NCBI RefSeq assembly: GCF_020991275.1 | Contig: NZ_JAJLQY010000005.1 | Location: 124,001-188,000, forward strand | Reading direction: 5' to 3' | DNA: 64,000 nt | From: Actinocorallia sp. API 0066 | GTDB lineage: Bacteria > Actinomycetota > Actinomycetes > Streptosporangiales > Streptosporangiaceae | The notes under the pieces: generated by a model | Seen by the model: the letters and a program-made list of their open reading frames with translations, nothing else | Told to the model about the DNA's origin: nothing | The model's database searches: none | Shown here: in pieces, positions 21 to 15,922 of the stretch | How positions within the stretch are numbered: position 1 is the stretch's first letter | Layout of the letters: each line of letters begins with the position of its first letter | Made by a program: the position numbers and the translations under genes

Positions 21-740
21 TCAGGAGGAGGCCGGGAGGACCGCCCGCAGGCGCTCCTCCCGCAGGCGTCCCGCCCAACTGTCGTCGACCGGCTCCAAGC
101 GGCGCTTGACCGCCCAGCCGAGCAGCAGATCGGCGAGACCCGGGTTGCGGACCAAAGCGGGCCCGTGCATGTAGGTGCCGACGATGTGGCCCGCGTAAGC
201 GCCCTCGTAGCCGTCACCGTTGCCGATGCCGACCGCGACCCGCGCCAGCGGCTTCACGCTCGGGCCGAGCCGGGTGACGCCCTGGTGGTTCTCGAACCCG
301 GTGATCATCGGCACGCCGAGCGCCGGATCCACCTCGCCCGCGATCTCGCCGACGGCCCGGATCTCGCCCCGGCCGCTGCGGATGTCGAGCAGGCCGACAC
401 CCTGGACGGGCTGGCCCTCCTCGCCGCCGAACTCGTGACCGAGCAACTGGTAGCCCGCGCACACCGCGAACACCGCCGCGCCGAACTCGACGGCCTTGTG
501 CAGGCCGCCGTCCGCGCGCAGCCGCTGCGCCGCGAGGATCTGCGGCCGGTCCTCACCGCCGCCGAGCAGGTAGATGTCACCGTCCACGGGGACCGGCTCG
601 TCCGAGCGGACCCGCACCGTCCGGGGGATGATGCCGCGCAGCCGGGCCCGCCGCTCCAGGACGATGACGTTGCCGCCGTCACCGTAGGTGCTGAGCAGGT
701 CGGGGTAGATCCAGACGATCTTGATCTCTTCAGAGGGCAC
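21..740 (-). CDS. gatD: Lipid II isoglutaminyl synthase, glutamine amidotransferase subunit GatD
   Basis: This 239-residue class I glutamine amidotransferase should supply ammonia to MurT for amidation of the D-Glu alpha-carboxyl of lipid II. The sequence shows the nucleophile elbow AVCAGYQLLG with Cys94, the oxyanion region LLGGGEDRPQ at about 58-67, and a late His in GTYMHGPAL. Length and motifs match the GatD/CobB-CobQ-like family. The start overlaps the end of murT by 11 nt, so the two are translationally coupled in the usual murT-gatD order. The enzyme acts in the cytoplasm on membrane-bound lipid II. The assignment is firm from motifs plus partner gene. Confidence 0.95.
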   Translation of the reverse strand: MPSEEIKIVWIYPDLLSTYGDGGNVIVLERRARLRGIIPRTVRVRSDEPVPVDGDIYLLGGGEDRPQILAAQRLRADGGLHKAVEFGAAVFAVCAGYQLLGHEFGGEEGQPVQGVGLLDIRSGRGEIRAVGEIAGEVDPALGVPMITGFENHQGVTRLGPSVKPLARVAVGIGNGDGYEGAYAGHIVGTYMHGPALVRNPGLADLLLGWAVKRRLEPVDDSWAGRLREERLRAVLPASS

Positions 741-1962
741 GGCCGTACCTCGTTCGGATGTTCTGGAAGGCTGTGTAGTTGGCGATCACGTCGAGCTTGC
801 CGGGCGGCACCGCCAGGACCGCCTGCTCGATGTCGTCGACGACGCGGAAGTCGACCTCGGCGGCCTCCAGGCGGGTCGCGAGGTCGAGCCTGCGCTCACC
901 CGTCGCCCACACCGGACGGCCCTTGAGGACGCGGTAGTCGACGTCCCAGAGCCACGAGGTGTCACGGCCGTCGGGGCCCTGCGCGTTGATCGACAGCGCG
1001 ACCGGGCCCGGCGCGGGCTCCAGCACGTCGAACGCCTCCAGCCAGCCCGCCGGGTTCTTCGCCAGCAGCAGCCGGATGTCACGGCCCTGGAACTGGACCG
1101 TGGTGTACCGGCCCGCGACCGAGGCGACCCGGCCCAGCAGCGGCAGCGCCTGCTCCGGCGCGATCCCGAACAGGGCGACGACGGCCAGCGCCATCGCGCC
1201 GTTGGAGCGGTTGGCCCGGCCCGGGAGCTGGAGATCCAGGCCGTAGGTGTGGCCGCCGGGGGTCGTCACCCTGTCGCCGTGCAGGATCCAGTCCGGCTTC
1301 GGCCTGGCGAACGGGCACTGGCGGCACGCCCAGTGGCTTCCGTCGCGGTCGAGCGGCCCGCCGCACTCGGGACAGCACCAGGAGTCCTCCTTCCAGTGCT
1401 GGCCCACCGCGACCCAGGTGACCTTCCTGGCCGTCGAGGCGCCCCAGGTGACGAGCGGGTCGTCGCAGTTCGCCACGACGTGCGTGTCGGCGCCGTCCAG
1501 GGCCTTGCGCCACTTGCCGGCGAGCTGCCAGATCTCGCCCGCGCGGTCCATCTGGTCGCGGCTCAGGTTCATCAGGAGGACGATGTTGGCCTTCGTCTCG
1601 CTCAGGACCAGCGGCACGTACTTCTCGTCGCACTCCAGCACGCCGTACTGGGCGTCCGGCGCGGCGGCCAGCGCGCTGACGTGCCCGGTGGGCATGTTGG
1701 CGCCGAACGCGTTCGTGGCGACCTCGCCCAGGCCGCTCATCGCGCTCGCGATCAGCCTGGTCGTTGTGGTCTTGCCGTTGGTGGCGCTGACGAGGACGAG
1801 TTTGCGATCCGCGGACAGCCTGGTGAGGAGTTCGGGGTCGAGCTTCAGCCCGATCTTCCCGCCGATCACCGATCCGTCGCCTCGTCCGGCCAGCCGCGAC
1901 ATGCGCGAGGCGGTCCGCCCGAGGGCGACCGCCAGCTGCGACCGCAGCGGAAGATCACTCAT
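730..1962 (-). CDS. murT: Lipid II isoglutaminyl synthase, Mur ligase subunit MurT
   Basis: This is a 410-residue Mur-ligase-type ATPase. The P-loop TNGKT lies at residues 61-65. A four-Cys zinc ribbon (CCPECGG then CRQC) sits at roughly 200-225, the insertion typical of MurT. The C-terminal part carries the MurT-specific DUF1727 region. It activates the D-Glu carboxyl of lipid II with ATP so that ammonia from GatD can form D-isoglutamine, a step important for peptidoglycan cross-linking in Gram-positives. ATG at 1962 is preceded by a GAGAAG-like ribosome site. The gene is divergent from the zinc-ribbon gene at 2237. Confidence 0.95.
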   Translation of the reverse strand: MSDLPLRSQLAVALGRTASRMSRLAGRGDGSVIGGKIGLKLDPELLTRLSADRKLVLVSATNGKTTTTRLIASAMSGLGEVATNAFGANMPTGHVSALAAAPDAQYGVLECDEKYVPLVLSETKANIVLLMNLSRDQMDRAGEIWQLAGKWRKALDGADTHVVANCDDPLVTWGASTARKVTWVAVGQHWKEDSWCCPECGGPLDRDGSHWACRQCPFARPKPDWILHGDRVTTPGGHTYGLDLQLPGRANRSNGAMALAVVALFGIAPEQALPLLGRVASVAGRYTTVQFQGRDIRLLLAKNPAGWLEAFDVLEPAPGPVALSINAQGPDGRDTSWLWDVDYRVLKGRPVWATGERRLDLATRLEAAEVDFRVVDDIEQAVLAVPPGKLDVIANYTAFQNIRTRYGRAL

Positions 1963-2236: not shown

Positions 2237-5200
2237 ATGCGGTGTCCGTCCTGCGCCCTGCAGGCGTCCGAAGGGCAGGCGTCGTGTGCCCGTTGTGGCA
2301 CCCCCCTTCCCGCCGCGTCGGACTCGTCCGCCCTCGCCGGCGCCTATGCCGCACCCACCAGCAGTACGGAGAAGACCATCCTCTTCGACCGCTGGCCCCC
2401 CATCCCCCCGGAGGGCGACCCCACCGTGACCACCTACGACGCCGCCGCCACCCCCCAGCCGCCGCGCCCCCCGTCCCACGACGTCCCCTCCTTCCCCCCT
2501 CCCCCGGCCCCCCAAGCCGCCGCTCCCCCCTCCCCCTTCCCGCCCGGAGCCGGTGCCCCCGGCGGCCCCTTCGGCCAGGGCGCACCGAGCGACCCCTACG
2601 GCTTCCCGGCGACCGGCGCGCAGAACACCCCGTTCACGCCTGGCGCGGGCGGCCCCTACGGCCAGGGCGGCGAGGCTGCCGGAGGAGGCGCGAGCGGCGC
2701 CCAGGGCGACGCCTTCGCACCCGGCGCGGGCAGCGGCCCCTTCGCACACAACACCCCGGGAACCCCCGGCGCCCCCTACGGATTCGCGGCGCCCGGCACA
2801 CAGGGCGACCCGTTCGCGCAGGGTGCCGACACCGGCGGCCACGACGAGGCCGTCGGCGCGGGCGGCGGCCAGTTCGGCCCCAGCGGCGACGTGTACGGCA
2901 GCGGCCCGACCGGAGCCCAGGACGACGCGTTCGGCGCGGCAGCGGGCGGCTCCTTCGGCGCCGGACCCGCCGGACCGGGCACGGGCACCGGCTCGTTCGG
3001 TGCCGTAGGCGACCCGTACGGCAACAGCGGCCACGACGAGGGGTGGGGCACGGGCGGCGGCCCCTTCGCTCACGGCACTTCGGGAACCCCCAGCGACCCC
3101 TACGGATTCCCCGCGCCCGGCACGCAGAACGGCGCGTTCACGCCGGGCACGGGCACCCCCTTCGGCCAGGGCGGCGGCGCCGGGGCCTACGGCGAGCCGA
3201 CCGGAGCAGGCGCGGGCGGCGGCCAGTTCGGCCCCGCCGACGGCAGCGGCCCGTTCGCCACCGGCGGCGACGTGTACGGCAGCGGCCCGGCCGGGGCACA
3301 CGACGACGCGTTCAGCACGGGCACGGGCACCGGCTCCTTCGGACACGGCAGCCCGGCAACACCCAGCGACCCCTTCGGCTTCCCGGCACCCGGCACCCAG
3401 GACAACCCGTTCACGCAGAGCGCGGGCAGCGGCCCCTTTGGTACTGGACCCACCGGAGCAGGCACGGGCAGCGTCCCACTCGGAACCGGAGGCCATGACC
3501 AGGCGTTCGAGACGAACGCGGGTAGCGGCCCCTTCGGTACCGCATCCGCCGAAACGAGCACAAACAGCGCATTCGGAGCCGGCGCCAACGCCTACGGCGA
3601 CAGCGGAACGCCCGACAACTCCTTCGGAGCGGGCACGAGCAGCGCGTTCGGGACGGGCGCGGGTAGCGGCCCCTTCGGAGCCGCGTCCGCCGAAACGGGC
3701 GCGAGCAGCACGTTCGGGGCCGGGGCCAACGCCTACGGCGACAACGCCAGCGGAGCGCCTGACGACTCCTTCGGAGCGGGTGCGAGCGGCGCGTTCAGGC
3801 CCGGGGGCAACGCCTACGGCGACAGCGCCAGTGGAGCGCCTGACGACTCGTTCGGAGCGGGTGCGAGCGGCGCGTTCGGGGCTGCGGGCGACGCCTACGG
3901 TGTCGGTACCGGCGGTGCGTCCGGCGACGTCTTCGGGGCGGGCACGGTCAATGGGCCGTTCGGGGCCGGGGGCGACGCGTACGGCAGCGGTGCGGCCGGG
4001 CGGCAGGACGAGGGGTTCGGGACGGGCGCCGGTAGCGGGCCGATCGGGGTCGGCGGGGGCGCGTCAGACGACGGGTTCGGACGCGGAGCGGGCGCTGGAT
4101 CGTTCGGCGCCGGACCGGCCGGGACGGGCGCGGGTGACATCCCGTTCGGCGCCGGAAGCGACGCGTACGGCGACAACGCGGCCGGATCGCGAGGCGACGG
4201 CTTCGCCACCGGTACGGGCGGCACCTCCTTCGGACAGGGCACTACGGGCACGCCCAGCGACCCCTACGGATTCCCCGCGACCGGCGCGCAGGACGACGCC
4301 TTCGGCGCGGCGCCGAGCGGCACCTCCTTCGGACAGAGCGCTACAGGCACGTCCAGCGACCCCTACGGGTTCCCGACGACCGGGGCTCAGGGCGACGCGT
4401 TCGGCGCGGGCGGGTCGTACGGGCCGGGCGGCGACGCCTACGGCGGCGGCGCGGCCGGGGCTCAGGACGACGCCTTCGGCGCGGGAGCGGGCGGCACCTC
4501 CTTCGGACAGAGCACTACAGGCACGCCCAGCGACCCCTACGGATTCCCCGCGACCGGCGCGCAAGACGACGCCTTCGGCGCGGGGGCGGGCGGCACCTCC
4601 TTCGGACAGAGCGCTGCGGGGGCGGCCAGCGACCCCTACGGATTTCCGGCGGCCGGGGCGCGGGACGACACGTTCGGTGCGGGCGGGTTGTACGGGCCGG
4701 GCGGCGGCGGCGCGGGCGGGGTGCAGGGCGACGCGTTCGGTGCTGGGGTGGGCGGCGGCTCCTTCGGGCAGGGCGCTGCGGGGGCGGCCAGCGATCCTTA
4801 CGGGTTCCCGGCGGGCGGGGTGCGGGATGACGCGTTCGGTGCGGGTGGGTTGTACGGGCCGGGCGGTGGCGGCGCGGGCGGGGTGCAGGGTGACGGGTTC
4901 GGTGCTGGGGTGGGGGGTGGCTCGTTTGGTGCGGACGGGGCGGGCAGGGCTCGGGACGACGGGTTCGGGCGGGGTGGCGGGGGGGTTGGGTCCGGGGCGG
5001 GTGGTGGCCGTGGGGAGACGTTCGGGGCGGGGCGGTATGACGGGGGGACGTTCGGGGTTGGGGTAGGGGCTTTGGGGGCGGGGGACTCCACGTTCGCGGT
5101 GCCTGCGGTGCCGCCGGTGCCGGCGGAGGATCCGGGGGAGGCCACGCAGTGGTGGACGCCGGCGATGGACGGGCCGTCCGGGGGGTCGCCGTTGCCGGGA

Positions 5201-6169
5201 TCGGACGTGGTGGCGCCGGTGCCGTCCGGCGGCGTGGTGCCGCCGGTGGCCGGGGGCGGGGTTCCGGAGAACAGGGGCGAGCCGGTCGTGCCGGACTCCT
5301 GGTTCGCGGAGCCGGTGGGGCAGGGGCAGCCGCAGCCGCAGCGGCGGGAGGAGGGGCCTCGGGCCCCGGTGGTGCAGCCGCTTTCGGCGCCGCCCTCGCA
5401 GGCGCAGATGGCGCCGTACGCGCCTCCGCCGCCGCCCGGACGGCAGTACGTGCCCGAGCAGCCGCAAGGCGGGTGGGCCGGGGCCGGGCGTGACGAGCGC
5501 CCGTTGTGGGACCCGGAGGGTCCGCTGCCGATGACGCGGTCACACCGGTCGTCGTCGGGGACGCCGACCAGGCGGGGGAACAAGCGGCTGCTCGCCGGGG
5601 TCGTCGCGCTCGTCGCCCTCGCCGTCGCCGCCGTCCTTTTTGTCGTGTTCGACGGGGACGACGAGAACACGACGGTCGGGCCGCAGAAGACGAACACGCC
5701 GGTCGCCGAGGGTGCGGCCGCCGATCCGGGCGCGGCGAAGCAGGCGAAACGCGTCAACGCGCTGCTGAACTCCAGCTCGCGCAGCCGCACCCAGCTGGGC
5801 GGCGCGCTGGAGAACGCGAAGAAGTGCAAGAAGCTGCCGGAGGCGATCGCGTCGATGCAGCAGATCGCGCAGCAGCGCCAGCAGCAGCTCCAGCGGGCCG
5901 AGACGATCAAGATCGGGAAGCTCGCGCAGTCCGGGAAGCTGAGGACGTCGCTCGTGCAGTCGATGCAGCTTTCGCTGGACGTGGACAACGCGTTCCTGGC
6001 GTGGGCGAACCGGCATCAGGGCTGCAAGGGGAACACCCCGACGGACGATCCGGACTACGCGCGCGGCAACGACCTGTCGGCGCAGGCGTCGAAGGCGAAG
6101 AGCCGGTTCCTGTCCGTGTGGAACAAGGTGGCGCCCGCGCACGGCCTGGCCCGCAGGCAGCACTTCTGA
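2237..6169 (+). CDS. Giant zinc-ribbon, FG-repeat, single-TM protein of unknown function
   Basis: About 1310 residues; function not recognised. Order: a four-Cys zinc ribbon at residues 1-25 (MRCPSC then CARCG); a short Pro-rich stretch; about 1000 residues of imperfect Gly/Ala/Phe/Tyr-rich repeats containing about 40 FG dipeptides and recurrent SDPYGFP, DDAFGA and SFGQ units; a basic linker; one membrane helix at about 1130-1155 (GVVALVALAVAAVLFVVF); and a C-terminal helical domain of about 150 residues with two Cys. The topology suggests the repeats are cytoplasmic and the C-terminal domain outside. That domain is related to the end of the next protein; both finish in a FLxxWNxxAxxHGL-like pattern. 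ATG 2237 is preferred over TTG 2228 because AAGAAGG lies about 9 nt upstream of the ATG and abuts the TTG. Codon use in the repeats becomes G-rich towards the 3' end, as expected of repeat expansion. Confidence 0.8.
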   Translation: MRCPSCALQASEGQASCARCGTPLPAASDSSALAGAYAAPTSSTEKTILFDRWPPIPPEGDPTVTTYDAAATPQPPRPPSHDVPSFPPPPAPQAAAPPSPFPPGAGAPGGPFGQGAPSDPYGFPATGAQNTPFTPGAGGPYGQGGEAAGGGASGAQGDAFAPGAGSGPFAHNTPGTPGAPYGFAAPGTQGDPFAQGADTGGHDEAVGAGGGQFGPSGDVYGSGPTGAQDDAFGAAAGGSFGAGPAGPGTGTGSFGAVGDPYGNSGHDEGWGTGGGPFAHGTSGTPSDPYGFPAPGTQNGAFTPGTGTPFGQGGGAGAYGEPTGAGAGGGQFGPADGSGPFATGGDVYGSGPAGAHDDAFSTGTGTGSFGHGSPATPSDPFGFPAPGTQDNPFTQSAGSGPFGTGPTGAGTGSVPLGTGGHDQAFETNAGSGPFGTASAETSTNSAFGAGANAYGDSGTPDNSFGAGTSSAFGTGAGSGPFGAASAETGASSTFGAGANAYGDNASGAPDDSFGAGASGAFRPGGNAYGDSASGAPDDSFGAGASGAFGAAGDAYGVGTGGASGDVFGAGTVNGPFGAGGDAYGSGAAGRQDEGFGTGAGSGPIGVGGGASDDGFGRGAGAGSFGAGPAGTGAGDIPFGAGSDAYGDNAAGSRGDGFATGTGGTSFGQGTTGTPSDPYGFPATGAQDDAFGAAPSGTSFGQSATGTSSDPYGFPTTGAQGDAFGAGGSYGPGGDAYGGGAAGAQDDAFGAGAGGTSFGQSTTGTPSDPYGFPATGAQDDAFGAGAGGTSFGQSAAGAASDPYGFPAAGARDDTFGAGGLYGPGGGGAGGVQGDAFGAGVGGGSFGQGAAGAASDPYGFPAGGVRDDAFGAGGLYGPGGGGAGGVQGDGFGAGVGGGSFGADGAGRARDDGFGRGGGGVGSGAGGGRGETFGAGRYDGGTFGVGVGALGAGDSTFAVPAVPPVPAEDPGEATQWWTPAMDGPSGGSPLPGSDVVAPVPSGGVVPPVAGGGVPENRGEPVVPDSWFAEPVGQGQPQPQRREEGPRAPVVQPLSAPPSQAQMAPYAPPPPPGRQYVPEQPQGGWAGAGRDERPLWDPEGPLPMTRSHRSSSGTPTRRGNKRLLAGVVALVALAVAAVLFVVFDGDDENTTVGPQKTNTPVAEGAAADPGAAKQAKRVNALLNSSSRSRTQLGGALENAKKCKKLPEAIASMQQIAQQRQQQLQRAETIKIGKLAQSGKLRTSLVQSMQLSLDVDNAFLAWANRHQGCKGNTPTDDPDYARGNDLSAQASKAKSRFLSVWNKVAPAHGLARRQHF
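2560..5070 (+). repeat. Coding tandem-like repeats, Gly/Phe/Tyr-rich
   Basis: This stretch encodes degenerate repeats of about 30-45 residues built from SDPYGFPATGAQDDAFGAG and SFGQ-type blocks. The copies between 4240 and 4900 are the most alike at DNA level, pointing to recent duplication or gene conversion. Such a region is prone to assembly collapse and copy-number variation between strains. Confidence 0.8.
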
Positions 6170-6269
6170 CACCCGGTGACGGGCAGGGGACGTTATGCCG
6201 GGCTCGCTCCCGCTAGTGTGAACTGCGACGTACGCCTGGGACAAGAACTCCCCCCTTGGAGAGCCCGCG

Positions 6270-7283
6270 ATGCAGTGTCCGGAATGCCGGAGCGAGACCC
6301 CCGGATCCCTCGGCCGGTGCACCCGTTGCGACGCGCCGCTCCCGCAGGCCGACGAGGCGCCCTGGACGCCTCAGGTCGTGGGCGACCAGTGGCCGCCGGA
6401 GCCGTGGCGTCCGGATCCGGCGGTGCGTTCGTCGTGGCGGCCGCCGGAGCCCGTCGAGGAGGAGCGGCAGTGGCCGCCCGAGCCGCAGGCGGCGCAGTGG
6501 CGGGAGCAGCAGCCGGAGCGCGCCCCGTGGCCGGGGCCGGAGCGGTCCGATCCGGGGTGGGGCGGCGCGGGCCGTCCCGAGGCGTGGGGCGGGCCGCCGC
6601 CGCAGCAGCCGGTGCCGCCGCAGGAGCCGCCGCACCGAAGCGGCCAGGAGAACTGGATCCCCGACGACGGCCCGAGCTGGCGCGGCCCGCTGCTGGCCGG
6701 GCTGGTCGCGGCGCTGCTCACCGGCGCCGTCGTGGTGGGCTATGTGTTCTGGAAGGGTTCTGACGATCCGGGCGATCTGTCCCTCAACGGCGGCCAGAGC
6801 ACCTCGCGCACGGACACCCCGGACGGCGCTGAGAAGCCCGAGGACGGCGGCGCGGCCCAGGGTGACGCCAAGACCCAGGCGGCGACCGTCGACGACCTCC
6901 TGGACGTGATGACCGACAGCAGGGCCAAGCTCGCCACGATCACGTACACGTGCGCGAACAAGGACGCCGACATCGAGACGTTCTCGAACGCGATCGAGGA
7001 GCGTGAGGGCCAGCTCGGGGAGGCGGCCGACCTGGACCTGTCGGCGCTGCCGAAGGGCGCCGAGGTGAAGGCGGCGCTGCAAGGCGCGCTCCAGGCTTCG
7101 ATCGACTCCAACAAGGAGGCGCTCGCGTTCCTGAAGGACGAGGACGGCTGTGACGGCGACGCCGGCACCCGGCTGAAGGACGCCACCGACAGGGCGACGG
7201 CCACCAAGCGCACCTTCCTCGACCTGTGGAACCCGATAGCCGAGGAGCACGGGCTGTCCGCCCGCACGCGGGACAAGATCTGA
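6270..7283 (+). CDS. Zinc-ribbon single-TM protein, short paralogue of the upstream giant protein
   Basis: The 337-residue protein has the same plan as its upstream neighbour: an N-terminal zinc ribbon (CPEC then CTRC), a Pro/Glu/Trp-rich cytoplasmic linker of about 120 residues, one membrane helix near residues 137-160 (AGLVAALLTGAVVVGYVFW), and an extracytoplasmic domain of about 150 residues with two Cys, probably disulfide-bonded. The C-terminal domains of the pair align over their length. This copy lacks the FG repeats, so the repeat tract is dispensable to the fold. It is followed 5 nt later by the HerA-like ATPase gene, which implies an operon. Function unknown. Confidence 0.8.
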   Translation: MQCPECRSETPGSLGRCTRCDAPLPQADEAPWTPQVVGDQWPPEPWRPDPAVRSSWRPPEPVEEERQWPPEPQAAQWREQQPERAPWPGPERSDPGWGGAGRPEAWGGPPPQQPVPPQEPPHRSGQENWIPDDGPSWRGPLLAGLVAALLTGAVVVGYVFWKGSDDPGDLSLNGGQSTSRTDTPDGAEKPEDGGAAQGDAKTQAATVDDLLDVMTDSRAKLATITYTCANKDADIETFSNAIEEREGQLGEAADLDLSALPKGAEVKAALQGALQASIDSNKEALAFLKDEDGCDGDAGTRLKDATDRATATKRTFLDLWNPIAEEHGLSARTRDKI

Positions 7284-7288
7284 CGCCG

Positions 7289-10090
7289 GTGGGCGCGTGG
7301 GCACCCCTGCCGGGGCCGTGGATCCGGATCGAGGCGGTGCTGGCGGCGCAGCGTCCCTCCTCCGCCGAGTGGGACTTCCTGACGGTGCTGCCCGCCGTGC
7401 TGTCGGCGGCGCAGCGGAGGCGGCCGTTCGCCGTCGGGTGGCTGTCGCGCGGCGGCGGGGTGCCGCTGGAGCTGGTGACGAACGCGGTGTCGGGTGACGG
7501 CGGCCCCCTGTTCCCCAACGGGGCGCGCGGTAGGCGGCGCGGCGAGGAGTGGCTCACCGAGGCGTCCCGGCTTGTGTGGAAGCGGTGTCCGGGCAGGCAG
7601 GCGCCACCGCTTCCGTCGGCGGGAGCCGAGGGCGCGACTCTGTTCGAGTCGATGCTGGTGACGCTGCTGGACCGCCCGTTCGGCTGGCTGGTGACGGCGG
7701 TGCCGCGCCCGGAGGCCGAGCTGGACGACGAGGTCCGGGCGCTCCGCCACGAGCTGCGGATGGCCCGCCGGGACGAGCAGGGCGGCGCGGAGCGGGTCGA
7801 GCGCAGGCTCGCGGAGCTCGACGCCTACCGCGAGGGCGGCCTGTGGGACGTCAGGGTGCTCGCGGGCGCGGCGGACGCCGCCGATCTGGAGCGGGTCGCG
7901 CCCGTCCTGGTCGGCTCGGTGGAGCTGGGCCACCACCCGTACCGGCTGCGCACGGCACGCTCGATCCTGACGCTGGGCGAGGCGCTGTCGGGCGAGGAGG
8001 AGGGTTTCCCGTTCGGCGCGACGGCTGGCGTCCTGGCGCCGCTGGCGGGCCTGCCCCGGCGCGAGGTGCCGGGCGTGCGGGTCCTGGACGCGGGCTTCTT
8101 CGACGTCACCTCGGAGACGCCGGGGGGCGGCCTCGTGCTCGGCGACATCCTGGACGGGCGGGACAGGCCGGTCGGCTCGTTCGGCGTGCCGCTGGAGACG
8201 CTGAACCGGCACGCGTTCGTCACGGGCGCGACGGGTTCGGGCAAGTCCCAGACGGTGAGGCACCTGCTGGAGCAGTTGACGGCGGCGGGCGTCCCGTGGC
8301 TGGCGATCGAGCCGGCCAAGTCGGAGTACGCGGCGATGGCGGGCCGGATCGGCGCGCCCGTCACGGTGGTGAACCCTTCGGATCCGGCGGCGGTGCCGCT
8401 CTCGGTGAACCCGCTGGCGCCCGAGCCGGGCTATCCGGTGCAGGCGCACATCGACATGGTCAGGGCGCTGTTCCAGGCGGCGTTCGCGGCGGACGAGCCG
8501 TTCCCGCAGATCATCGCGCAGGCGCTCCAGCGGGTGTACGAGGAGTGCGGCTGGGACGTGGTGACGGGTGAGGGCAGGCCGGGCGGGCGCGTCCCGCCTG
8601 CGGTGCCGACCTTGGAGCAGCTCCAGCGGGCCGCCTTGGCCGTCATCGACGACGTCGGCTACGGCAAGGAGCTGATGGCCGACGTGAAGGGCTTTGTGGA
8701 CGTCCGTCTCAGGTCGCTGCGGATCGGGTCGGCCGGGAGGTTCTTCGAAGGCGGCCATGACGCTGACATCGGCGGCCTCCTGCGCGACAACGTGGTGCTC
8801 GCGATCGAGGACGTCGCCAACGACGAGGACAAGGCGTTCCTCATGGGCACGCTCATCATCCGGGTCGTGGAGCACCTGCGGATGCGGGCGCGGGAAGAGC
8901 GGGCGCCGGGCCTGCGGCACGTCATCGTCATCGAGGAGGCGCACCGGCTGCTACGGCACCGTGAGCACGCGAGCGCGCACGCCGTCGAGCTGTTCGCCGG
9001 GCTGCTGGCGGAGATCCGCGCTTACGGCGAGGGCATCGTGGTGGCCGAGCAGATCCCGGTGAAGCTCATCCCTGACGTGGTCAAGAACACCGCGTTGAAG
9101 ATCGTGCACCGGCTTCCGGCGTTCGATGACAGGCATGTGGTGGGCGCGGCGATGAACCTGGACCCGGACCAGTCGCGCGAGGTCGTCTCGCTGCGTCCGG
9201 GCGTCGCGGCGGTGTTCGCGGACGGCATGGACCGGCCGCTGCGGGTGCGGATCCCGCACGGCGAGCACCGGGAGCGGCGGATGCCGAGCCCGCCGCCGCC
9301 GATCGCGGGCCGCCGCTCGGTGGCGTGCGGTGCGGAGTGCCGTTCGGGCCGCGCCTGCTCGCTGCGGGAGCTGCGCGAGGCGGAGCTGCTGGCGACGGCC
9401 GCCGAGCAGGCGTGGCTGCGGCTCTGGACGGACGTGCTGGTGCTCGCCCATCTGGTGAACCGGCCGCTGCCGTCGGTACCGGCGGAGTTGGAGCGCGCGT
9501 GGGGAAGGCTCGCCCCGCGCACCCGCGAGTGCATGCTGGCGACCGTGGTGGACCACACCGTGGGGCGGCGCGCGCGGGCGTTGCGCGCCACGTTCAATCC
9601 GTTGGACCTGACGGTGGCCGTCACCTCGGCGGCGGGCCTGCTCCTGGCCGGAAAGCAGGCCGTTCAGGGCGGCCCCGGGTTCGTCATCCCTCAGGTGCGC
9701 TGGTTGCACGAGGTGGACAAGCTTCTGCCTTTGGACGCTCCCGAGCTGGACCCCCACGCGCTCGCGCCTGCGCTGGACTATCCGCTGCTGTCCCTGAAGG
9801 GCAGGTCGCCGGACGCGAAGGTGGGGCAGCGGCTGCGTTCGCTGCGCCGTCATCCGCTGTCGATGTATCTCCCGACGAACCGGCCGCCGGCCCTCACCGC
9901 GCTCGTCGGCGACGCGCCGGACCCTTTTGAGACGGACCTCGACACCGTCTCGGTGGGCCTGCCTCCGGAAGAGCACCTGGACCGGCTTACCGAGGCGCTG
10001 GGCACGCCGTGGCTGCCCGCCGTGCTGTCGTGGCCGACCCGGCACGTCACCCCGCCGGAGGACGAGGCGCCGGGCCACTCCACGCACTGA
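7289..10090 (+). CDS. HerA/VirB4-like P-loop ATPase (DUF87)
   Basis: The 933-residue protein contains a Walker A motif GATGSGKSQT with Lys319 and a Walker B motif VIVIEEAHRLL with Glu549 and Glu550. The spacing, a DUF87-type core and the EEAHR signature fit the HerA/VirB4 branch of the FtsK-HerA superfamily, ring ATPases that move DNA or protein. The N-terminal 290 residues may be a family-specific adaptor, and about 280 residues follow the core. GTG 7289 is chosen because it lies 5 nt after the upstream stop, although the ribosome site is weak. No membrane helix is seen, so it probably docks on the membrane proteins encoded around it. Substrate unknown. Confidence 0.8.
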   Translation: MGAWAPLPGPWIRIEAVLAAQRPSSAEWDFLTVLPAVLSAAQRRRPFAVGWLSRGGGVPLELVTNAVSGDGGPLFPNGARGRRRGEEWLTEASRLVWKRCPGRQAPPLPSAGAEGATLFESMLVTLLDRPFGWLVTAVPRPEAELDDEVRALRHELRMARRDEQGGAERVERRLAELDAYREGGLWDVRVLAGAADAADLERVAPVLVGSVELGHHPYRLRTARSILTLGEALSGEEEGFPFGATAGVLAPLAGLPRREVPGVRVLDAGFFDVTSETPGGGLVLGDILDGRDRPVGSFGVPLETLNRHAFVTGATGSGKSQTVRHLLEQLTAAGVPWLAIEPAKSEYAAMAGRIGAPVTVVNPSDPAAVPLSVNPLAPEPGYPVQAHIDMVRALFQAAFAADEPFPQIIAQALQRVYEECGWDVVTGEGRPGGRVPPAVPTLEQLQRAALAVIDDVGYGKELMADVKGFVDVRLRSLRIGSAGRFFEGGHDADIGGLLRDNVVLAIEDVANDEDKAFLMGTLIIRVVEHLRMRAREERAPGLRHVIVIEEAHRLLRHREHASAHAVELFAGLLAEIRAYGEGIVVAEQIPVKLIPDVVKNTALKIVHRLPAFDDRHVVGAAMNLDPDQSREVVSLRPGVAAVFADGMDRPLRVRIPHGEHRERRMPSPPPPIAGRRSVACGAECRSGRACSLRELREAELLATAAEQAWLRLWTDVLVLAHLVNRPLPSVPAELERAWGRLAPRTRECMLATVVDHTVGRRARALRATFNPLDLTVAVTSAAGLLLAGKQAVQGGPGFVIPQVRWLHEVDKLLPLDAPELDPHALAPALDYPLLSLKGRSPDAKVGQRLRSLRRHPLSMYLPTNRPPALTALVGDAPDPFETDLDTVSVGLPPEEHLDRLTEALGTPWLPAVLSWPTRHVTPPEDEAPGHSTH

Positions 10091-10094
10091 TCCG

Positions 10095-11873
10095 TCAGGC
10101 CCGTGGGTTCTCTGTCGGCTCGGACTCCAGCGGCGTCGCGGTCGGGAGGGTGGCGATGCCCGGGTTGGCGTCCACGAGGTGGATGGTGTTGGCGTGGGTG
10201 AAAACCATCGCGGTGGGCGGAAGGTCCTGGAGCTGGCGGCGCTCGGGGCGCAGCTCCCGGGTGGGCTGGGGGGTGGGGGCGTCCGCGACGGTCCGAGGCC
10301 ACGGGCCGGTACGGATCGCGTCCAACAGGGCCGGGCTGGGTTGGGTGGGCACCGCGATGGGCGCCGTCAGTGCTTGTTCGGCCCGCTTACGTCGCGCGTA
10401 GGCGATCGTCGAAGGGTAGGGGCCGGTGGGTTCCTCGGGGGTCGCCTTCTCCGTGAGTTCGGCGAGCAGGAGACGCCTGTCCGCGCCCAGGTAGGCGGCC
10501 GCGGCGGCCGCGTCGTCGGCGTTGCCGAGGCGCATGAACCCGACGGCGGCGTTGCCCCGGCCGAGCCGCTCGCGCACGTGCGGCGGGATCGTCCGGTACA
10601 GCAGGACGAGCCCCGTCGCGGTGGTCTCGCACGCGTCCGTCAGCCGGTCCAGGACGTCGCCGCGCAGCTTCTCCGCGCCGCACAGGAAGACGGTGTGCCC
10701 CCACGGGTGCTGGGTCGGCGACTGCCTCAGCAGATGCGTGACGACCGTCGTGACGTACGTGCCGAGCACCTTGTTGGTGAGCACCCCTGCCTTACGGTCG
10801 AGCGAGATCACCTTGAGCCGCGCCGGAGGCAGGTGGACGGCTTCCGCGCCGAGGTCGTCCAGCTTGTTCAGCTGCGACTCCAGCGTCCAGGCCCGCTCCA
10901 GCACGACGCGGTCGGCGGCGGTGCGGCCGAACAGCGTGGTCAGCCTGGCGAGTTCGGCCTCGGTGAGCAGGCCCGCGCGCAGGTCGTCGCGCGGGTCGCC
11001 GACCTGGGCGAGGGCGCGTAGGGCGGCGGTGATCCTTGCGATGCGCGGGGTGCCGCCCAGGACGGACACGACGCGTTCCAGGATGGAGTTGTCGATGGAC
11101 GTGTCCCGTACCGTCGACTCGGCTTCGGTCGCGTTCACGACGACCGAGAGCACGTCCGCGAGGGCCGACGGGGAGAGCTGGGCGCCCAGGTCGAACCTGC
11201 GCAGGTCGGCCGGTAGGACCCAGACGAGGGGGTCGTCACCCGCGACGCGCAGGAGGTCGCGCGCGACGGCGCCTTCGGAGAGGTCGAGGACCGTCACCTG
11301 GGAGCCCGCGGCGAGCCTTGCCGCGCCCATGAGCGTCACGGCCGCCGACCAGCCCGCGAGGGTGCCGCCCGCGACGTCGATCCTGTCGACGCCGGGCGGG
11401 ACGGGCACGGGGTGCCACTCGCGCTGTGCCTCGTAGGCGGCGCGCTGCTCTTCCCAGCGTTCGCGGGCGCGGGTGTAGCCGTCCTCGGCCTCGGCGCGAC
11501 GCTGCTCGATCCTGGCGACCTCGCGGTCGCGGCGGGCCCGGTCGGCGCGGCGGCGGATGCGCATGGCCTGCTCGCCCTGCCAGATGGCCCAGCCGGTGAT
11601 GCCCGCGATGACGGCGCAGGCGAGCAGCCCGACGAGCGCGAACGGCCAGTGCAGCCAGCCGAGCGCGGTGAGCGCGACGAGCAGCACGGCGCCCGCGCCC
11701 GCCCCGGCCGCGGTGTACTTGAGCGGCCGGTTGAGCAGCGTCTCGCCCTCGTACCGCTCGGCGTCCTCCCGCCAGGTGGGCTTGGCGTGCACGTGCGGCG
11801 CCGGGGGCCTGGGCGCAGGACCCGGGTCGGGGTGCGCCAGGTCGTAGCGCCAGCCGACGAAGAGCCGCTCCAT
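10095..11873 (-). CDS. Two-TM membrane protein resembling a P-loop-less VirD4/FtsK-type NTPase
   Basis: About 592 residues. After a Pro-rich N-terminus there is a hydrophobic hairpin (about residues 50-95, two helices), a charged coiled-coil (about 100-150), then an alpha/beta domain. Where VirD4/TraG proteins have a GxxGxGKS loop, this protein reads GGTLAGWSA. A later strand VFLCGAEKLRG occupies a Walker B-like place but lacks the acidic pair. The order of elements and the final segment on copies of lgN/A-rich helices resemble coupling proteins, so I infer an inactive relative. ATG 11873 has GAGGTGG about 11 nt upstream; GTG 11888 is an alternative start. It converges on the HerA-like gene with a 4-nt gap. 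Confidence 0.6.
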   Translation of the reverse strand: MERLFVGWRYDLAHPDPGPAPRPPAPHVHAKPTWREDAERYEGETLLNRPLKYTAAGAGAGAVLLVALTALGWLHWPFALVGLLACAVIAGITGWAIWQGEQAMRIRRRADRARRDREVARIEQRRAEAEDGYTRARERWEEQRAAYEAQREWHPVPVPPGVDRIDVAGGTLAGWSAAVTLMGAARLAAGSQVTVLDLSEGAVARDLLRVAGDDPLVWVLPADLRRFDLGAQLSPSALADVLSVVVNATEAESTVRDTSIDNSILERVVSVLGGTPRIARITAALRALAQVGDPRDDLRAGLLTEAELARLTTLFGRTAADRVVLERAWTLESQLNKLDDLGAEAVHLPPARLKVISLDRKAGVLTNKVLGTYVTTVVTHLLRQSPTQHPWGHTVFLCGAEKLRGDVLDRLTDACETTATGLVLLYRTIPPHVRERLGRGNAAVGFMRLGNADDAAAAAAYLGADRRLLLAELTEKATPEEPTGPYPSTIAYARRKRAEQALTAPIAVPTQPSPALLDAIRTGPWPRTVADAPTPQPTRELRPERRQLQDLPPTAMVFTHANTIHLVDANPGIATLPTATPLESEPTENPRA

Positions 11874-12097
11874 AACCGTGCGGTCCACCTCATGTCGTCC
11901 ACGTCCGGGGCCCCTCCGTGTCGCGGGGGCTCCTTACCCCGCGGAGGTTTTCCACTGGTGACAGCGTAAGAAGGTTGCCCGTCTTCTGCCCGGAGTTCAA
12001 CGGAACAGGTCGGTAGCCTTTATGCCAAGTCGGACACAAACCGCCAAACCGGGCTAACGGGATGATCGTCCGACTGGCCGATGACGGCCGTGCCGCG

Positions 12098-13459
12098 TCA
12101 CCGCGTCAGCAGCGCGGTGCTGACCGCCGTCCCGAGGGTCGCCGACGCCTGGTTCGCGACGCCACCCTTGTCCTGCTTGGCGAGGTCACTGCGGTAGGCC
12201 ATCGAGAAGACGAGCAGGTTGCCCGAGATGTGGATGTGGCTCCAGGTGTAGACGCGCTTGTTCCCGATCTGCTTGACGCCGCTCCCCTTCTTCGGCTCGA
12301 TCAGATACGGGTACCGCTTCGCCCGCTTCACCGTCTCCGCCGCGCCCGCCGTCCGGATCGGCATGATCACGACCGTCACGACGGCGCCCTTGCCGGGGCT
12401 CGCGTACACCGCGCCCCTGAAGTTCCCCCTGCACGGGTTCTTCGCCAGCACCTCCTTGAGGGTCTCAGGCGAGATCTCCGAGCACTTGCCCTGCGCCGTG
12501 CCCGCCCGCCGGAAGACGCCGTCCGAGGTCCGCAGGCTCACCTTGAGGACGTTGCCCGGCACCTGGCGCGGCGCGCCGCTCGGCGGCGTCGGGACCTCCA
12601 GCGGCGGAACCGTCACCTCGGGAAGGGGCGGGAGCGACGGGACGTCGACCGTCGGCACCTCGATGGCCACCGGCGGCGCGTCCACGTCCACACCCCGCTT
12701 GCCCTTCTTGCCGCCGAGACCGACGACGGCGCCGACCACCACGAGCAGCACCGCCGCGACAACACCGCCGACGATCAGCAGCGGCTTCTTCCCGCTCGGC
12801 CGCACGGGCGGCGGAGGCGGCGGGAACCCGCCCTGCCCGAACGGCGCCGGCGTGCCCGGCGGCGGCGGATACCCGCCCACCGCGAACGGCTGCGGCGTCC
12901 CCGGCGGATGGGCGAACGGCGCGCCGGGCGCCTGCGCGAACGCGGGACCCGGCACGAACGGCTGCGGCGCGCCGGGCGGCTGGCCGAACGCCGCGTCCGG
13001 GACACCCTGCGGCTGCCCGAAGGCGAACGGCTGCGGTGTGCCGGGCGACTGCCCGAACGCGGGCGCGCCCGGCGCCTCGGCCCCCTGCGCGAACGGCGGC
13101 TGGCCGAAGGCGGGGCCCGGAACGCCCGGGGGCTGGCTGAAGGCGGGGCCGGGAGGTTGGACGGCGAACGGCGGCGGCGTGCCCGGCGGCTGCCCGAACG
13201 CGGGCGTGCCCTGCGCCTCGGCCGCCCGCGCGAACGGCGGGGGCGTGCCGGGCGGCTGCCCGAACGGCTGCGCGGCGTCGGCGGGGGGCGGCGGGACTGC
13301 CTCGGCGGCGGGCGCGGCACCCGGCTGGGCGAAGGAGGGCGGCGCGCCCTGCGGCTGACCCGGCTGTACCAGCGGGGTGCCCAGATGCGTCTCGTCGCCC
13401 GCCTGCGGGGGCGGTTCCTGCTGGTACTGGAACGGGTCGTGGTTGCCGGCGTTGGCCAT
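12098..13459 (-). CDS. Pro/Gly/Phe-rich membrane-anchored protein, function unknown
   Basis: The 453-residue protein begins with a Pro/Gln-rich stretch, then about 190 residues of repeats such as FGQPPGTPPPFA and PGAPAFGQ. One membrane helix follows at about residues 227-250 (LLIVGGVVAAVLLVVVGAVV). The C-terminal 200 residues look like a folded extracytoplasmic domain with two Cys (GKCSE and NPCRG). The plan of low-complexity cytoplasmic tail, one helix and outer domain matches the proteins at 2237 and 6270 without clear sequence identity in the outer domain. It may belong with them, but it could equally be an unrelated envelope protein. Confidence 0.7.
   Translation of the reverse strand: MANAGNHDPFQYQQEPPPQAGDETHLGTPLVQPGQPQGAPPSFAQPGAAPAAEAVPPPPADAAQPFGQPPGTPPPFARAAEAQGTPAFGQPPGTPPPFAVQPPGPAFSQPPGVPGPAFGQPPFAQGAEAPGAPAFGQSPGTPQPFAFGQPQGVPDAAFGQPPGAPQPFVPGPAFAQAPGAPFAHPPGTPQPFAVGGYPPPPGTPAPFGQGGFPPPPPPVRPSGKKPLLIVGGVVAAVLLVVVGAVVGLGGKKGKRGVDVDAPPVAIEVPTVDVPSLPPLPEVTVPPLEVPTPPSGAPRQVPGNVLKVSLRTSDGVFRRAGTAQGKCSEISPETLKEVLAKNPCRGNFRGAVYASPGKGAVVTVVIMPIRTAGAAETVKRAKRYPYLIEPKKGSGVKQIGNKRVYTWSHIHISGNLLVFSMAYRSDLAKQDKGGVANQASATLGTAVSTALLTR
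12840..13340 (-). repeat. Coding Pro/Gly/Phe-rich repeats
   Basis: Imperfect repeats of about 14-16 codons (FGQPPGTPPPFA family) make up the cytoplasmic tail of the protein encoded here. They are coding low-complexity sequence, not a mobile repeat. Confidence 0.65.
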
Positions 13460-13922: not shown

Positions 13923-14762
13923 TTACTTGGCGGCGCCGAGCTCGATCGGCACGCCCACCAGCGAGCCGTACTCGGTCCAGGAACCGTCGTAGTTCTTGAC
14001 GTCGGGCAGGCCCAGCAGCTCGCGCAGCGCGAACCAGGTGTGCGAGGAACGCTCGCCGATCCGGCAGTAGGCGATGATCGGGTTGTCGAGGTTCACCCCG
14101 GCCTCGGTGTAGAGCTCGCGGAGCTCCTCGTCCGACTTGAAGGTGCCGTCGTCGTTCGCGGCCTTCGACCACGGGATGTTCGCGGCGGTCGGCACGTGGC
14201 CGGCGCGCTGCGCCTGCTCCTGCGGCAGGTGGGCCGGGGCCAGCAGCTTGCCGCTGAACTCGTCGGGAGAGCGGACGTCGATCAGGCCCTTGGTGCCGAT
14301 CGCGTCGACGACCTCGTCGCGGAAGGCGCGGATCGCGAGGTCCTGCTCCTTGGCCTCGTAGGAGGTGGCCGGGCGGGTCGGCACGTCGGTGACCAGCTCG
14401 CGGGAGTCCAGCTCCCACTTCTTGCGGCCGCCGTCGAGCAGCTTGACGTTCTCGTGGCCGTAGAGCTTGAAGTACCAGTACGCGTAGGCCGCGAACCAGT
14501 TGTTGTTACCGCCGTACAGGATCACGGTGTCGTCGTTCGCGATGCCCTTCGACGACAGGAGCTGCTCGAAGCCGACCTTGTCCACGAAGTCGCGGCGGAC
14601 CGGGTCCTGCAGCTCGCTCTGCCAGTCGATCTTGATCGCGCCACGGATGTGACCCTTGTCGTAGGCGGAGACGTCCTCGTCGACCTCGACCAGCACGAGG
14701 CCGGGAGCGTCGAGGTTGGCTTCGACCCAGGCGGCGTCCACCAGGACGTCGTTGCGGCTCAT
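13923..14762 (-). CDS. sseA: Thiosulfate sulfurtransferase (two-domain rhodanese)
   Basis: This 279-residue tandem rhodanese moves sulfane sulfur from thiosulfate to cyanide or thiol acceptors. The C-terminal active loop is CRIGERS with catalytic Cys233. The N-terminal domain (residues 1-130) keeps the fold but has no Cys in its loop (YGGNNNW), the usual inactive half. Length fits the CysA2/SseA family. Its start abuts the stop of the DUF4395 gene with a 1-nt overlap, so the two are co-translated. Regulation by cysteine availability is suggested by the leader peptide at 15292-15357. Confidence 0.93.
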   Translation of the reverse strand: MSRNDVLVDAAWVEANLDAPGLVLVEVDEDVSAYDKGHIRGAIKIDWQSELQDPVRRDFVDKVGFEQLLSSKGIANDDTVILYGGNNNWFAAYAYWYFKLYGHENVKLLDGGRKKWELDSRELVTDVPTRPATSYEAKEQDLAIRAFRDEVVDAIGTKGLIDVRSPDEFSGKLLAPAHLPQEQAQRAGHVPTAANIPWSKAANDDGTFKSDEELRELYTEAGVNLDNPIIAYCRIGERSSHTWFALRELLGLPDVKNYDGSWTEYGSLVGVPIELGAAK

Positions 14763-15196
14763 TACAGAACCTCCTCAGAGTTCTTCTTCTTCGGTGAAAC
14801 ACGCTTGATGAGCAGAAACATCTCGCACCCGAGGCAGAACCCGAACGCGGCGTTCAGGAACGCCGCCCCGAGGGCGAATGCGGTGGCTGCGATCCCCAGC
14901 CACGAGATTCCCAGGCTGTATCCGGCCACGCCCACCAGCGCGAACGCGAGACCGACACCCTGCGCGAAACGCGGCGGTGCCTCGTCCTCGAGTTCACCCG
15001 GCGGGCCCAAGCGCGGCCGTACCAGGCGGGCGAAGACCAGCCCGTACGGATGGTGACGCAGTCCGAAGAAGACTCCGATCGCGAACACCACGGCCTGAGC
15101 GGCGAGCAGCACCCAACTTCCGGTGATGAGCACCGCCACCAGGACGATCGAGGTGAGCGCAGCAGTGAACCGCTGACCTCTGGGGTCGACTTTCAT
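14762..15196 (-). CDS. DUF4395 membrane protein
   Basis: A 144-residue DUF4395-type membrane protein with about four hydrophobic helices: two near the N-terminus (ALTSIVLVAVLITGSWVLL; AAQAVVFAIGVFF) and two in the second half. The family motif FGFCLGCEMFLL, with a conserved CxxC near residue 130, is present. The family is usually next to thioredoxin-like and rhodanese genes, as here, which suggests membrane redox or sulfur traffic; no activity has been proved. It is the first full gene of the SseA operon. Confidence 0.85.
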   Translation of the reverse strand: MKVDPRGQRFTAALTSIVLVAVLITGSWVLLAAQAVVFAIGVFFGLRHHPYGLVFARLVRPRLGPPGELEDEAPPRFAQGVGLAFALVGVAGYSLGISWLGIAATAFALGAAFLNAAFGFCLGCEMFLLIKRVSPKKKNSEEVL

Positions 15197-15244
15197 GACG
15201 GATTTCGCTCCCTCAGGAAGCAGAAGTGCGGGCGCCTGGACGGT

Positions 15245-15271
15245 GCGAGAGGAAAAAGACCTTCCCCTCGC
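15245..15271 (-). promoter_or_regulatory. Candidate attenuator hairpin between leader peptide and DUF4395
   Basis: In the minus-strand transcript, GCGAGGGGAA can pair with TTCCTCTCGC (one G-U wobble) around a 7-nt loop. It lies 21 nt after the leader-peptide stop and before the DUF4395 start. Position suggests a role in leader-dependent control; whether it acts on transcription or translation cannot be told from sequence. Confidence 0.4.
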
Positions 15272-15291
15272 GACAGCGGCTGCGGCTGTTC

Positions 15292-15357
15292 TCAGGCCAT
15301 GCGACAGAGCGCTGTCGCGACGCGGCAGTAATCGACCGCCCGCCGCTTCGTCAGCAT
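15292..15357 (-). CDS. Cys-containing leader peptide upstream of the SseA operon
   Basis: A 21-codon ORF from ATG 15357 to TGA 15292 encodes a basic peptide ending VDYCRVATALCRMA. It lies about 95 nt before the DUF4395 start. Very similar short peptides with the pattern RRAVDxCRVxxALCR are annotated as putative leader peptides ahead of cysteine and sulfur genes in Streptomyces and relatives, and short Cys-rich leader ORFs precede sulfur genes in mycobacteria. The two Cys codons near the end fit cysteine-responsive control of the downstream genes. The reading frame and position are seen; the mechanism is inferred. Confidence 0.7.
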   Translation of the reverse strand: MLTKRRAVDYCRVATALCRMA

Positions 15358-15478
15358 CTGCTCTGTCCAGTAACGCACGGACACGATGTTACGAGCCTTG
15401 CCGCCGCCTGTCACCCCCGTCTCGTATGACGAGACGGTTACCTCGCGGTTAGAAGATCGTTTCACCTGCTCAAGTCCG

Positions 15479-15877
15479 TCACACCCGGCCCAGTACCGCG
15501 ATGACATCGGCCTTGCGCGGCTGTCCCGACGCACGTTGCACGATCGAGCCCGCGCCGTCCAGGACGAACACGGTAGGAGTCTTGAGAACGCCGAGCTCGC
15601 GGACGAGGTCCAGGTGCGCCTCGGCGTCCACTTCGACGTGCCGCACACCCTCGACCATGCCCGCGACGTCCTCCAGGACGCGCCGGGTCGCCCGGCACGG
15701 CGCGCAGAACGCGCTGGAGAACTGGAGCAGGGTGGCCCGCTCGCCGAGCTCGAACTCCCAGGCGCGGGGCTTGTCCGCGGCGTTCTGCGCCTTCAGCCGT
15801 CCGGTCCGCCGCTGCCAGACCAGCCCGAAGACGGTGGCCGCCGCGAGCGTCGCGGCGGCGGCGATGAGACCGGTCAT
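15479..15877 (-). CDS. Membrane-anchored thioredoxin-like protein
   Basis: The 132-residue protein has an N-terminal hydrophobic helix (about residues 3-20) followed by a short thioredoxin fold. The redox motif is CAPC (Cys58, Cys61) in FSSAFCAPC, and the cis-Pro lies in LKTPTVF. It probably faces the cytoplasm or membrane surface and reduces disulfides or persulfides. It sits upstream of the DUF4395-sseA-DUF1416 group on the same strand, separated by the leader region, consistent with sulfur/redox work. Start ATG 15877. Confidence 0.88.
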   Translation of the reverse strand: MTGLIAAAATLAAATVFGLVWQRRTGRLKAQNAADKPRAWEFELGERATLLQFSSAFCAPCRATRRVLEDVAGMVEGVRHVEVDAEAHLDLVRELGVLKTPTVFVLDGAGSIVQRASGQPRKADVIAVLGRV

Positions 15878-15922
15878 ACCTGGAATGTATGCGATCGCCC
15901 GGTGGGGGCGTCCCCCGGGGCG

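Follow-up and report, generated by a model that had tools for sequence, protein, structure and literature searches.

The window described here is a stretch of 64,000 nucleotides (nt) from Actinocorallia sp. API 0066 (contig NZ_JAJLQY010000005.1, positions 124,001 to 188,000). It contains five neighbouring genes, A to E, which a preliminary description read as a single undescribed envelope system whose phenylalanine-glycine (FG) repeats might form a condensate or gate. This article is mainly concerned with C and D. C encodes an ATPase of the VirB4/HerA family, D encodes a membrane-anchored protein with a VirD4- and VirB4-like predicted fold and no P-loop, and relatives of the two were found as a recurrent pair beside genes of toxin type.

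The motor C and its P-loop-less partner D

The genes and features of the locus are given below with their coordinates in the window (aa, amino acids; TM, transmembrane; AF2, AlphaFold2).

C, 7289-10090, plus strand: ATPase of the VirB4/HerA family, 933 aa, zero TM-like segments; the core of the finding
Walker A of C, 8225-8248, plus strand: GATGSGKS, residues 313-320
Walker B region of C, 8918-8938, plus strand: HVIVIEE, residues 544-550
D, 10095-11873, minus strand: membrane-anchored, P-loop-less VirD4/TrwB-VirB4-like protein, 592 aa; the usual partner of C
Residues 166-175 of D (DVAGGTLAGW), 11349-11378, minus strand: P-loop site of the fold, as placed by the AF2 model, without GxxxxGK[ST]
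A, 2237-6169, plus strand: 1310 aa; CxxC pair, FG-rich low-complexity region, TM-like segment 1115-1143, outer domain with two cysteines; a lineage-specific neighbour
B, 6270-7283, plus strand: 337 aa; CxxC pair, TM-like segment 138-163, outer domain related to that of A
E, 12098-13459, minus strand: 453 aa; proline-rich N-terminus, TM-like segment 222-253
MurT-family gene, 730-1962, minus strand (start at 1869 according to the gene caller): chromosomal landmark adjoining the C-D locus
GatD-family gene, 21-740, minus strand: landmark on the same side as MurT
Rhodanese-type sulfurtransferase gene, 13923-14762, minus strand: landmark on the opposite side

The positions and features of A to E are as the preliminary description gave them. 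The last three genes are those which we take to be MurT (lipid II amidation), GatD and a rhodanese-type enzyme; these names are recognition by eye, with no database match behind them.

C starts 5 nt past the stop codon of B and belongs to the HerA group (Pfam HerA_C, E = 1.2e-10). The top Foldseek match of its AF2 model (predicted local distance difference test score, pLDDT, of 84.6) is VirB4 (4ag5, E = 5e-12). Structural second looks with VIA, which rerank Foldseek's own PDB matches and leave room for families outside those, gave DndH-C (Z = 28.5, 338 residues, 3.1 Å) and VirB4 (Z = 27.1, 347 residues, 3.6 Å). Across 45 aligned C sequences, residues G313, T315, G316, G318, K319 and S320 of the Walker A motif are invariant, as are E549 and E550 in the Walker B region. 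With this fold and an intact Walker A, C has what is expected of the VirB4-type ATPase of a type IV secretion system (T4SS), and the intact HerA/VirB4-type ATPase that had been placed after B is confirmed. The EccC protein of the type VII secretion system (T7SS), which has three ATPase domains, gave a trace match (E = 0.057), and one P-loop ATPase domain was matched in C.

Some further observations on C were made. At residues 680-690, after the ATPase domain, the family has the consensus RSxxCGxxCxxxPCTLR, a three-cysteine cluster that, from its sequence, possibly binds a metal. Residues 252-618 match the NCBIfam model NF033849 ('serine-rich protein') far under its cut-off (E = 4e-10), and several D homologues carry a Ser/Gly/Thr-rich insert; NF033849 may therefore hold a fused relative. 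Remote relatives of C (33-34% identical) are found in L071 (3401-6207), L072 (3332-6246) and L078 (6787-8565). We take the genes beside them to be dynamin-like and, in L071 and L072, also Hsp70-like, as read by eye. These loci are probably another conflict system.

For D, no convincing family was found in Pfam, NCBIfam, PADLOC or the PDB sequences, with unconvincing Pfam and PDB matches only, and scanning 62 D proteins singly gave scattered weak matches and nothing more. The fold was instead assigned through the AF2 model (pLDDT 80.7). Its top Foldseek match is TrwB (E = 7e-6), and VIA gave VirB4 (Z = 21.1, 316 residues, 3.5 Å) and TrwB (Z = 20.1, 325 residues, 3.9 Å). The pattern GxxxxGK[ST] is absent at the P-loop site in 62 of 62 aligned sequences, which at this place show a motif resembling FGGTxxGW, in some variant or other. 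In the whole set the pattern occurs once, in L154, off-site near residue 91. Because the predicted fold is VirB4/TrwB-like and the P-loop is missing throughout, D is, on its model, a pseudo-NTPase of the VirD4/VirB4 kind. This agrees with the membrane NTPase-like protein without a P-loop that had been proposed, as do its two TM-like segments (residues 53-74 and 76-99).

In nine loci of early-branching relatives (L044 at 14127-15878, L045 at 8785-10674, L046, L070, L073 and L179-L182), a further membrane protein of 546-669 aa is encoded directly before D. From reading it, we take it to be VirD4-like. The L044 protein has a P-loop-like stretch, GGSGTGMST, without the lysine, and no Pfam match.

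Relatives of the pair beside toxin-type genes

Relatives were sought in one genome per species, 84,980 species in all. C relatives are encoded in 439 stretches, of which the best 80 were read; these are the named loci counted below, and the counts of effector position cover 86 loci (79 named and seven others). The gene caller was trained on C and D genes. Starts and some small genes are uncertain, and the longest open reading frame (ORF) was taken in long gaps after C.

D is present in 73 of the 80 named loci, all actinobacterial. In 45 loci it immediately precedes C, on the same strand and at most 110 nt away; in five it lies 110-600 nt upstream, in one farther upstream, in 15 it is divergent and in six downstream. 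Seven loci have no D, and in four of these C is no more than 2 kb from the end of its contig; one locus has no called C. These counts bear out the earlier suggestion that an active HerA/VirB4 motor goes together with an inactive, VirD4-like protein of the membrane. The commonest family shared near D is of the M48-peptidase type (10 loci).

In 75 of the 86 loci, C is followed by a gene on its own strand. The first such gene overlaps the stop codon of C in 32 (by exactly 4 nt in 29), and a gap of 1-100 nt separates the two in 21; D itself takes this position in L128 and L138. Typically the next gene encodes an acidic or proline-rich N-terminus without a signal, followed by a variable C-terminus. 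To obtain 65 candidate effectors from 82 candidates, 18 were dropped (five genes of the DUF1361 cluster in Actinomadura, two D genes, two ORFs in Kribbella gaps, one duplicate and eight that are probably fragments or unrelated to the effectors), a single gene from the list of downstream genes was included, and one ORF of L088 was swapped for the next. Pfam found calpain in six, RelA_SpoT in three, and Zeta_toxin, ADPrib_exo_Tox and YwqJ-deaminase in two each; Scabin-like, Endonuclea_NS_2, XOO_2897-deam, DddA-like, Gln_amidase, CdiA_C and RHS were found once each. A recognised toxin-type domain is thus present in at most 22 of the 65. For the control set, 77 genes at a distance of five genes or more were picked and 65 of them used; they have mainly transport, redox and regulatory or housekeeping families, with one Zeta_toxin, among the 25 of 129 families listed.

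Further downstream, 38 genes were scanned (35 of 54 listed and three at other coordinates). They gave DUF6406 (6), nucleoside hydrolase (4), Imm49 (3), HD hydrolases (2, both beside RelA/SpoT effectors), MORN (2) and Imm1 (1). An immunity gene next to the toxin, as expected of polymorphic toxins, was accordingly found only in the loci with Imm49 (three), Imm1 (one) and HD hydrolases (two).

The N-terminal leaders differ from those of the controls. In the first 120 residues, the median fraction of aspartate, glutamate and proline (D+E+P) is 0.37 versus 0.17, and the share of hydrophobic residues is 0.13 versus 0.31. A hydrophobic stretch in the first 60 residues was found in none of 59 effectors and in 14 of 64 controls. 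The C-termini can be exchanged behind such leaders. Among 50 locus pairs whose C proteins are at least 75% identical, 10 combine a score of at least 100 over the N-terminal 60 aa, a value somewhat inflated by poly-proline runs, with a score of at most 30 over the C-terminal 130 aa. The clearest case is that of L125 and L131, where the C proteins are 95% identical, the first 60 aa of the effectors are 73% identical and the last 130 aa are unrelated; neither effector has a Pfam match. The kept N-terminus and swapped C-terminal toxin domain of polymorphic toxins are therefore seen in these accessory relatives. Other pairs kept related C-termini, such as those of the calpain group, which fits a mixed history.

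The Actinomadura loci are arranged differently. A DUF1361 membrane protein follows C (L137 at 12754-13416, E = 4e-35), with members of the same sequence cluster in L136, L137, L139, L141 and L159. In L139, L141 and L147, a gene ahead of C shows similarity to the effectors of L120 and L134 (E = 7e-9 to 2e-14). L120, L133, L139 and L159 share a gene of about 195 aa close to C and the effectors; by eye, we take its product to be 3'-5' exonuclease-like.

Since toxin-type genes come next, immunity genes occur in some loci and C-termini are swapped, D and C are read as the fixed part of polymorphic-toxin loci. It is probable, with some reserve, that the two proteins form a module of this kind, most likely a protein export device. 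The preliminary description foresaw neither this toxin linkage elsewhere nor the toxin-free, MurT-GatD-linked character of the window's own copy.

The same loci could be interpreted as intracellular defence by abortive infection, or as toxin-antitoxin systems, in which C would sense or pump DNA, D would tether it to the membrane and the toxin would act inside the cell. C does match mad8 and the HerA models among profiles for defence systems (best E = 1.6e-17), its fold resembles those of DndH and of the HerA proteins in SIR2 and DUF4297 complexes, and Zeta and RelA/SpoT domains also serve as toxin-antitoxin effectors. However, C-terminal swaps behind a kept leader, Imm1 and Imm49, an effector with RHS repeats and the TM segments of D are marks of exported polymorphic toxins. 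HerA-based defence systems (SIR2-HerA, DUF4297-HerA, DndH) share the motor fold with C but differ in the partner, which here is a membrane-anchored dead NTPase, and profile scans found no SIR2, DUF4297 or NurA effector beside the C of the window, whose neighbours are B and D. The defence interpretation is therefore regarded as unlikely.

The accessory form is also found on plasmids, with 52 plasmid records matching C. On plasmids of Streptomyces clavuligerus, Nocardia and S. antimycoticus, a C homologue (48-50% identical) is preceded by a D homologue, with BLASTP E-values in a set of 13 proteins of 1e-13, 2e-8 and 2e-16, respectively. The gene after C encodes an ADP-ribosyltransferase, a presumably lipase-like protein (from reading a GHSLG motif) and a RelA/SpoT-like protein in the same order. 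Matches at E = 1e-40 or better occur in only six of 396 genomes spread over the phylum; the accessory form is therefore patchy. The 11.85-Mb 'plasmid' record of Nonomuraea gerenzanensis (L031) is evidently a chromosome. The presence of some loci on plasmids, together with two folds that both fall in the FtsK/HerA/VirD4 superfamily, would suit a device for DNA transfer, either TraB-like or a minimal conjugation system. Linkage to toxin-type genes would not be expected of such a device, and outside the MurT-linked set no other family lies near C or D in more than 13 loci, although not all families were named and relaxases were not searched for. DNA transfer is accordingly considered very improbable.

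The chromosomal copy and its neighbours

MurT-type genes occur near C in 20 loci and GatD-type genes in 20, and many of these loci have a rhodanese-type gene at the opposite flank. The usual order is rhodanese, D, C, MurT and GatD on one strand. In the genus of the window, C is inverted and therefore converges with D, and the space between it and MurT is taken up by A and B. A tree of 122 C proteins (FastTree, midpoint root) has a branch with an SH-like support of 100 that sets apart 24 rows, among them all 20 that are MurT-linked; for two of the four other rows the contig ends before the MurT place. Of these 24 chromosomal C proteins, 23 have an intact Walker A, and the remaining one (L070) is a short gene call without the region. 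The MurT-linked D proteins also form one group. The window copy is the toxin-free, chromosomal, MurT-GatD-linked form of its family: neither a toxin nor an immunity family was found among A to E, and its other neighbours are MurT, GatD and the genes of the rhodanese side. In about a dozen other loci, the interval between rhodanese and D (L049 at 2592-5925 and its equivalents) encodes a multi-TM protein (12 loci) and three proteins on the strand opposite to D and C (10-12 loci), one of them with DUF4352 in L049. These genes are common to many genera of the family; in the genus of the window, others take their place.

According to a wider interpretation, A to E would work together as a single machine of the envelope, with a gate or condensate formed by the FG repeats of A. 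The features on which this was built are largely present. Both A and B start with a CxxC...CxxC pair, their outer domains can be aligned with two invariant cysteines (8 sequences), and residues 60-1000 of A contain 42 FG dipeptides, above all of 1000 shuffles (mean 19.8, maximum 34), which is more than its composition predicts. A, B and E are all single-pass proteins. The description of A and B as membrane proteins with related outer domains holds, whereas the label 'zinc ribbon' rests on the CxxC motif, since the Pfam match is below the cut-off in A (E = 0.035) and there is none in B. The row A, B, C is found in three genomes of the same genus, A and B are also beside C in G003, and G021 has an A/B-type gene beside a C fragment.

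The distribution of these genes argues against the wider machine. Among 60 genomes of relatives, the A/B outer domain was found in 21, beside C in five (G000-G003 and G021) and away from C, or with C absent, in 16. The outer domain of E was found in three genomes, which all belong to the genus of the window, and two of these have it beside D; in G001 it lies about 20 kb from C. E is indeed a low-complexity neighbour with a proline-rich N-terminus and one TM-like segment, but it keeps this place in two genomes only. Beyond the genus, only the A/B domain spreads. All five genes occur together in the window and in G002, of the same genus, and nowhere else, although draft contig ends could conceal a few cases. 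The five-gene unit was rejected on this count. The FG repeats are not conserved either: the A homologues of L041, L042 and L043 have 10, 0 and 5 FG dipeptides, none above the maxima of their own shuffled letters (18, 5 and 8; 300 shuffles), which makes a conserved FG gate or condensate unlikely and led to its rejection. A five-gene machine with such a gate has hardly any likelihood left, and the FG-repeat proteins adjoining C-D are a local add-on. By their position only, A, B and E are candidates for cargo of the window's C-D pair.

A 1733-aa protein elsewhere in the window (27939-33140, minus strand), with an AAA lid domain slightly under the Pfam cut-off, has 31 FG dipeptides (shuffled mean 10.8, maximum 19; 300 shuffles). 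The FG habit may therefore belong to the genome and not be peculiar to A. The window also encodes a DUF3686 ATPase of 1581 aa (44576-51219, minus strand; Pfam E = 2e-201); its 633-aa neighbour, without a Pfam match, is taken from reading to be flotillin-like.

A putative two-protein export device

The export reading is preferred because the constant parts of polymorphic toxin systems have been linked to trafficking (PMC7159879), D is a membrane protein by prediction, and the effectors have no signal-like stretch. In this device, C would be a soluble motor of the VirB4/HerA kind and D its membrane-anchored, catalytically dead, coupling-protein-like partner. An effector would begin with a leader that is acidic or proline-rich and probably disordered, and would end in an exchangeable toxin domain. 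In the membrane, D would form a ring that receives the leader, and C a second ring that powers its passage, with the toxin following. The pairing, the predicted folds, the missing P-loop, the toxin linkage and the swapped C-termini are computed results; the rings, the export, the recognition of the leader and any function of the window's copy are inferences. The device would be a stripped-down relative of the VirB4/VirD4 core of a T4SS. Since no third membrane gene is generally conserved in cis, D may line the path itself or the channel may be encoded elsewhere. The copy in the window would probably be the same machine with other envelope cargo. The fuller proposal is that of a minimal protein-secretion system of Actinomycetota, in which a VirB4-like motor and a dead VirD4-like receptor export signal-less polymorphic toxins with acidic, disordered leaders, and of which a domesticated, toxin-free form stands beside the lipid II amidation genes in the window's family. 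Its chances of being right or wrong appear evenly balanced.

Several points weigh against the export reading. At least 43 of the 65 candidate effectors have no recognised toxin family, and some of the picks are probably not effectors. Nine of the 10 swap pairs come from one Streptomyces group, so the pairs are not independent. No third conserved membrane gene was found, a neighbour with at least four TM-like segments being present in 23 of 72 loci. HerA motors work in intracellular defence too. In the chromosomal form, profile scans found no toxin or immunity families among A to E, and no effector-like gene was seen after C in MurT-linked loci, as judged by position and length only. Finally, D precedes MurT with no C found anywhere in G008, G009, G010, G012, G022, G024 and G031, in G004 D precedes MurT and the C copy lies only elsewhere, and in G020 C was found but D was not. 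The C-D pair is therefore not obligatory at the MurT locus.

This last point suggests another explanation. The D of the window would be an envelope protein with a housekeeping role linked to the MurT-GatD region, C would be an accessory that the cell can do without, and neither would export anything in this family. Among 37 same-family genomes, D is present in 35 and C, chromosomal or accessory, in 28; in G036, D lies at a contig end and no C was found. Within the single group of MurT-linked D proteins, the C-less ones form a subgroup on a long branch, and D may work without this motor in those genomes. Their loci, with D between rhodanese and MurT, are L169-L175. On the other hand, where C is present it has stayed beside D, across about 20 genera, and this, with the nearly universal Walker A of the chromosomal C proteins, suggests joint work. 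The housekeeping explanation is rather doubtful, though it is the one to which we would turn before any other alternative.

The export device can be compared with known systems. VirB4 (TrwK) and VirD4 (TrwB) of T4SSs resemble C and D in their folds and in the combination of a soluble motor with a membrane-anchored partner. Unlike VirD4/TrwB, which is an ATPase-competent coupling protein, D has the fold without the P-loop, and, unlike in a T4SS, no generally shared further membrane component was seen in cis. As for further VirB subunits (VirB3, B6, B8 and others), no generally shared membrane family was seen among the neighbouring genes of the loci, which were compared without VirB profiles. 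The module is not called a T4SS because an active VirD4 is missing, although it would work like a part of one. As in polymorphic toxin systems, for which delivery by type I to type VII secretion systems, PVC, TcdB/TcaC and PrsW, among other routes, has been described, a kept N-terminus, a swapped C-terminal toxin and, in some C-D loci, an immunity gene are found; the accessible part of that account includes no route with an ATPase pair of the C-D type (Zhang et al. 2012, PMC3482391). The module is classed among the polymorphic toxin systems, as one whose type IV-like ATPase core is pared down and half dead.

The five-gene assembly had been presented as possibly undescribed. For the C-D module, searches of open-access literature, which leaves preprints and most subscription journals outside, found no description. 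The claim is qualified by one probable glimpse. In Streptomyces albireticuli, an alarmone synthetase without a signal peptide was reported beside genes named TrwB, TrwK and TrwI, and type IV secretion was suggested (2025, PMC12691689). That article treats a single example, and its section 9 has neither the general C-D pair nor the dead P-loop. The RelA/SpoT loci L034, L088 and L091 probably match this locus.

If export by the C-D module is true, many actinobacterial loci, among the 439 stretches with C relatives of which 80 were read, would send polymorphic toxins out free of signal peptides via a two-protein device. Soil actinobacteria would gain a class of weapon beyond antibiotics, umbrella toxins and the T7SS, and a very small model of a VirB4-type motor moving protein would become available. 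The chromosomal form raises the question of whether the device was tamed for work in the cell envelope, or whether the toxin exporters were derived from it.

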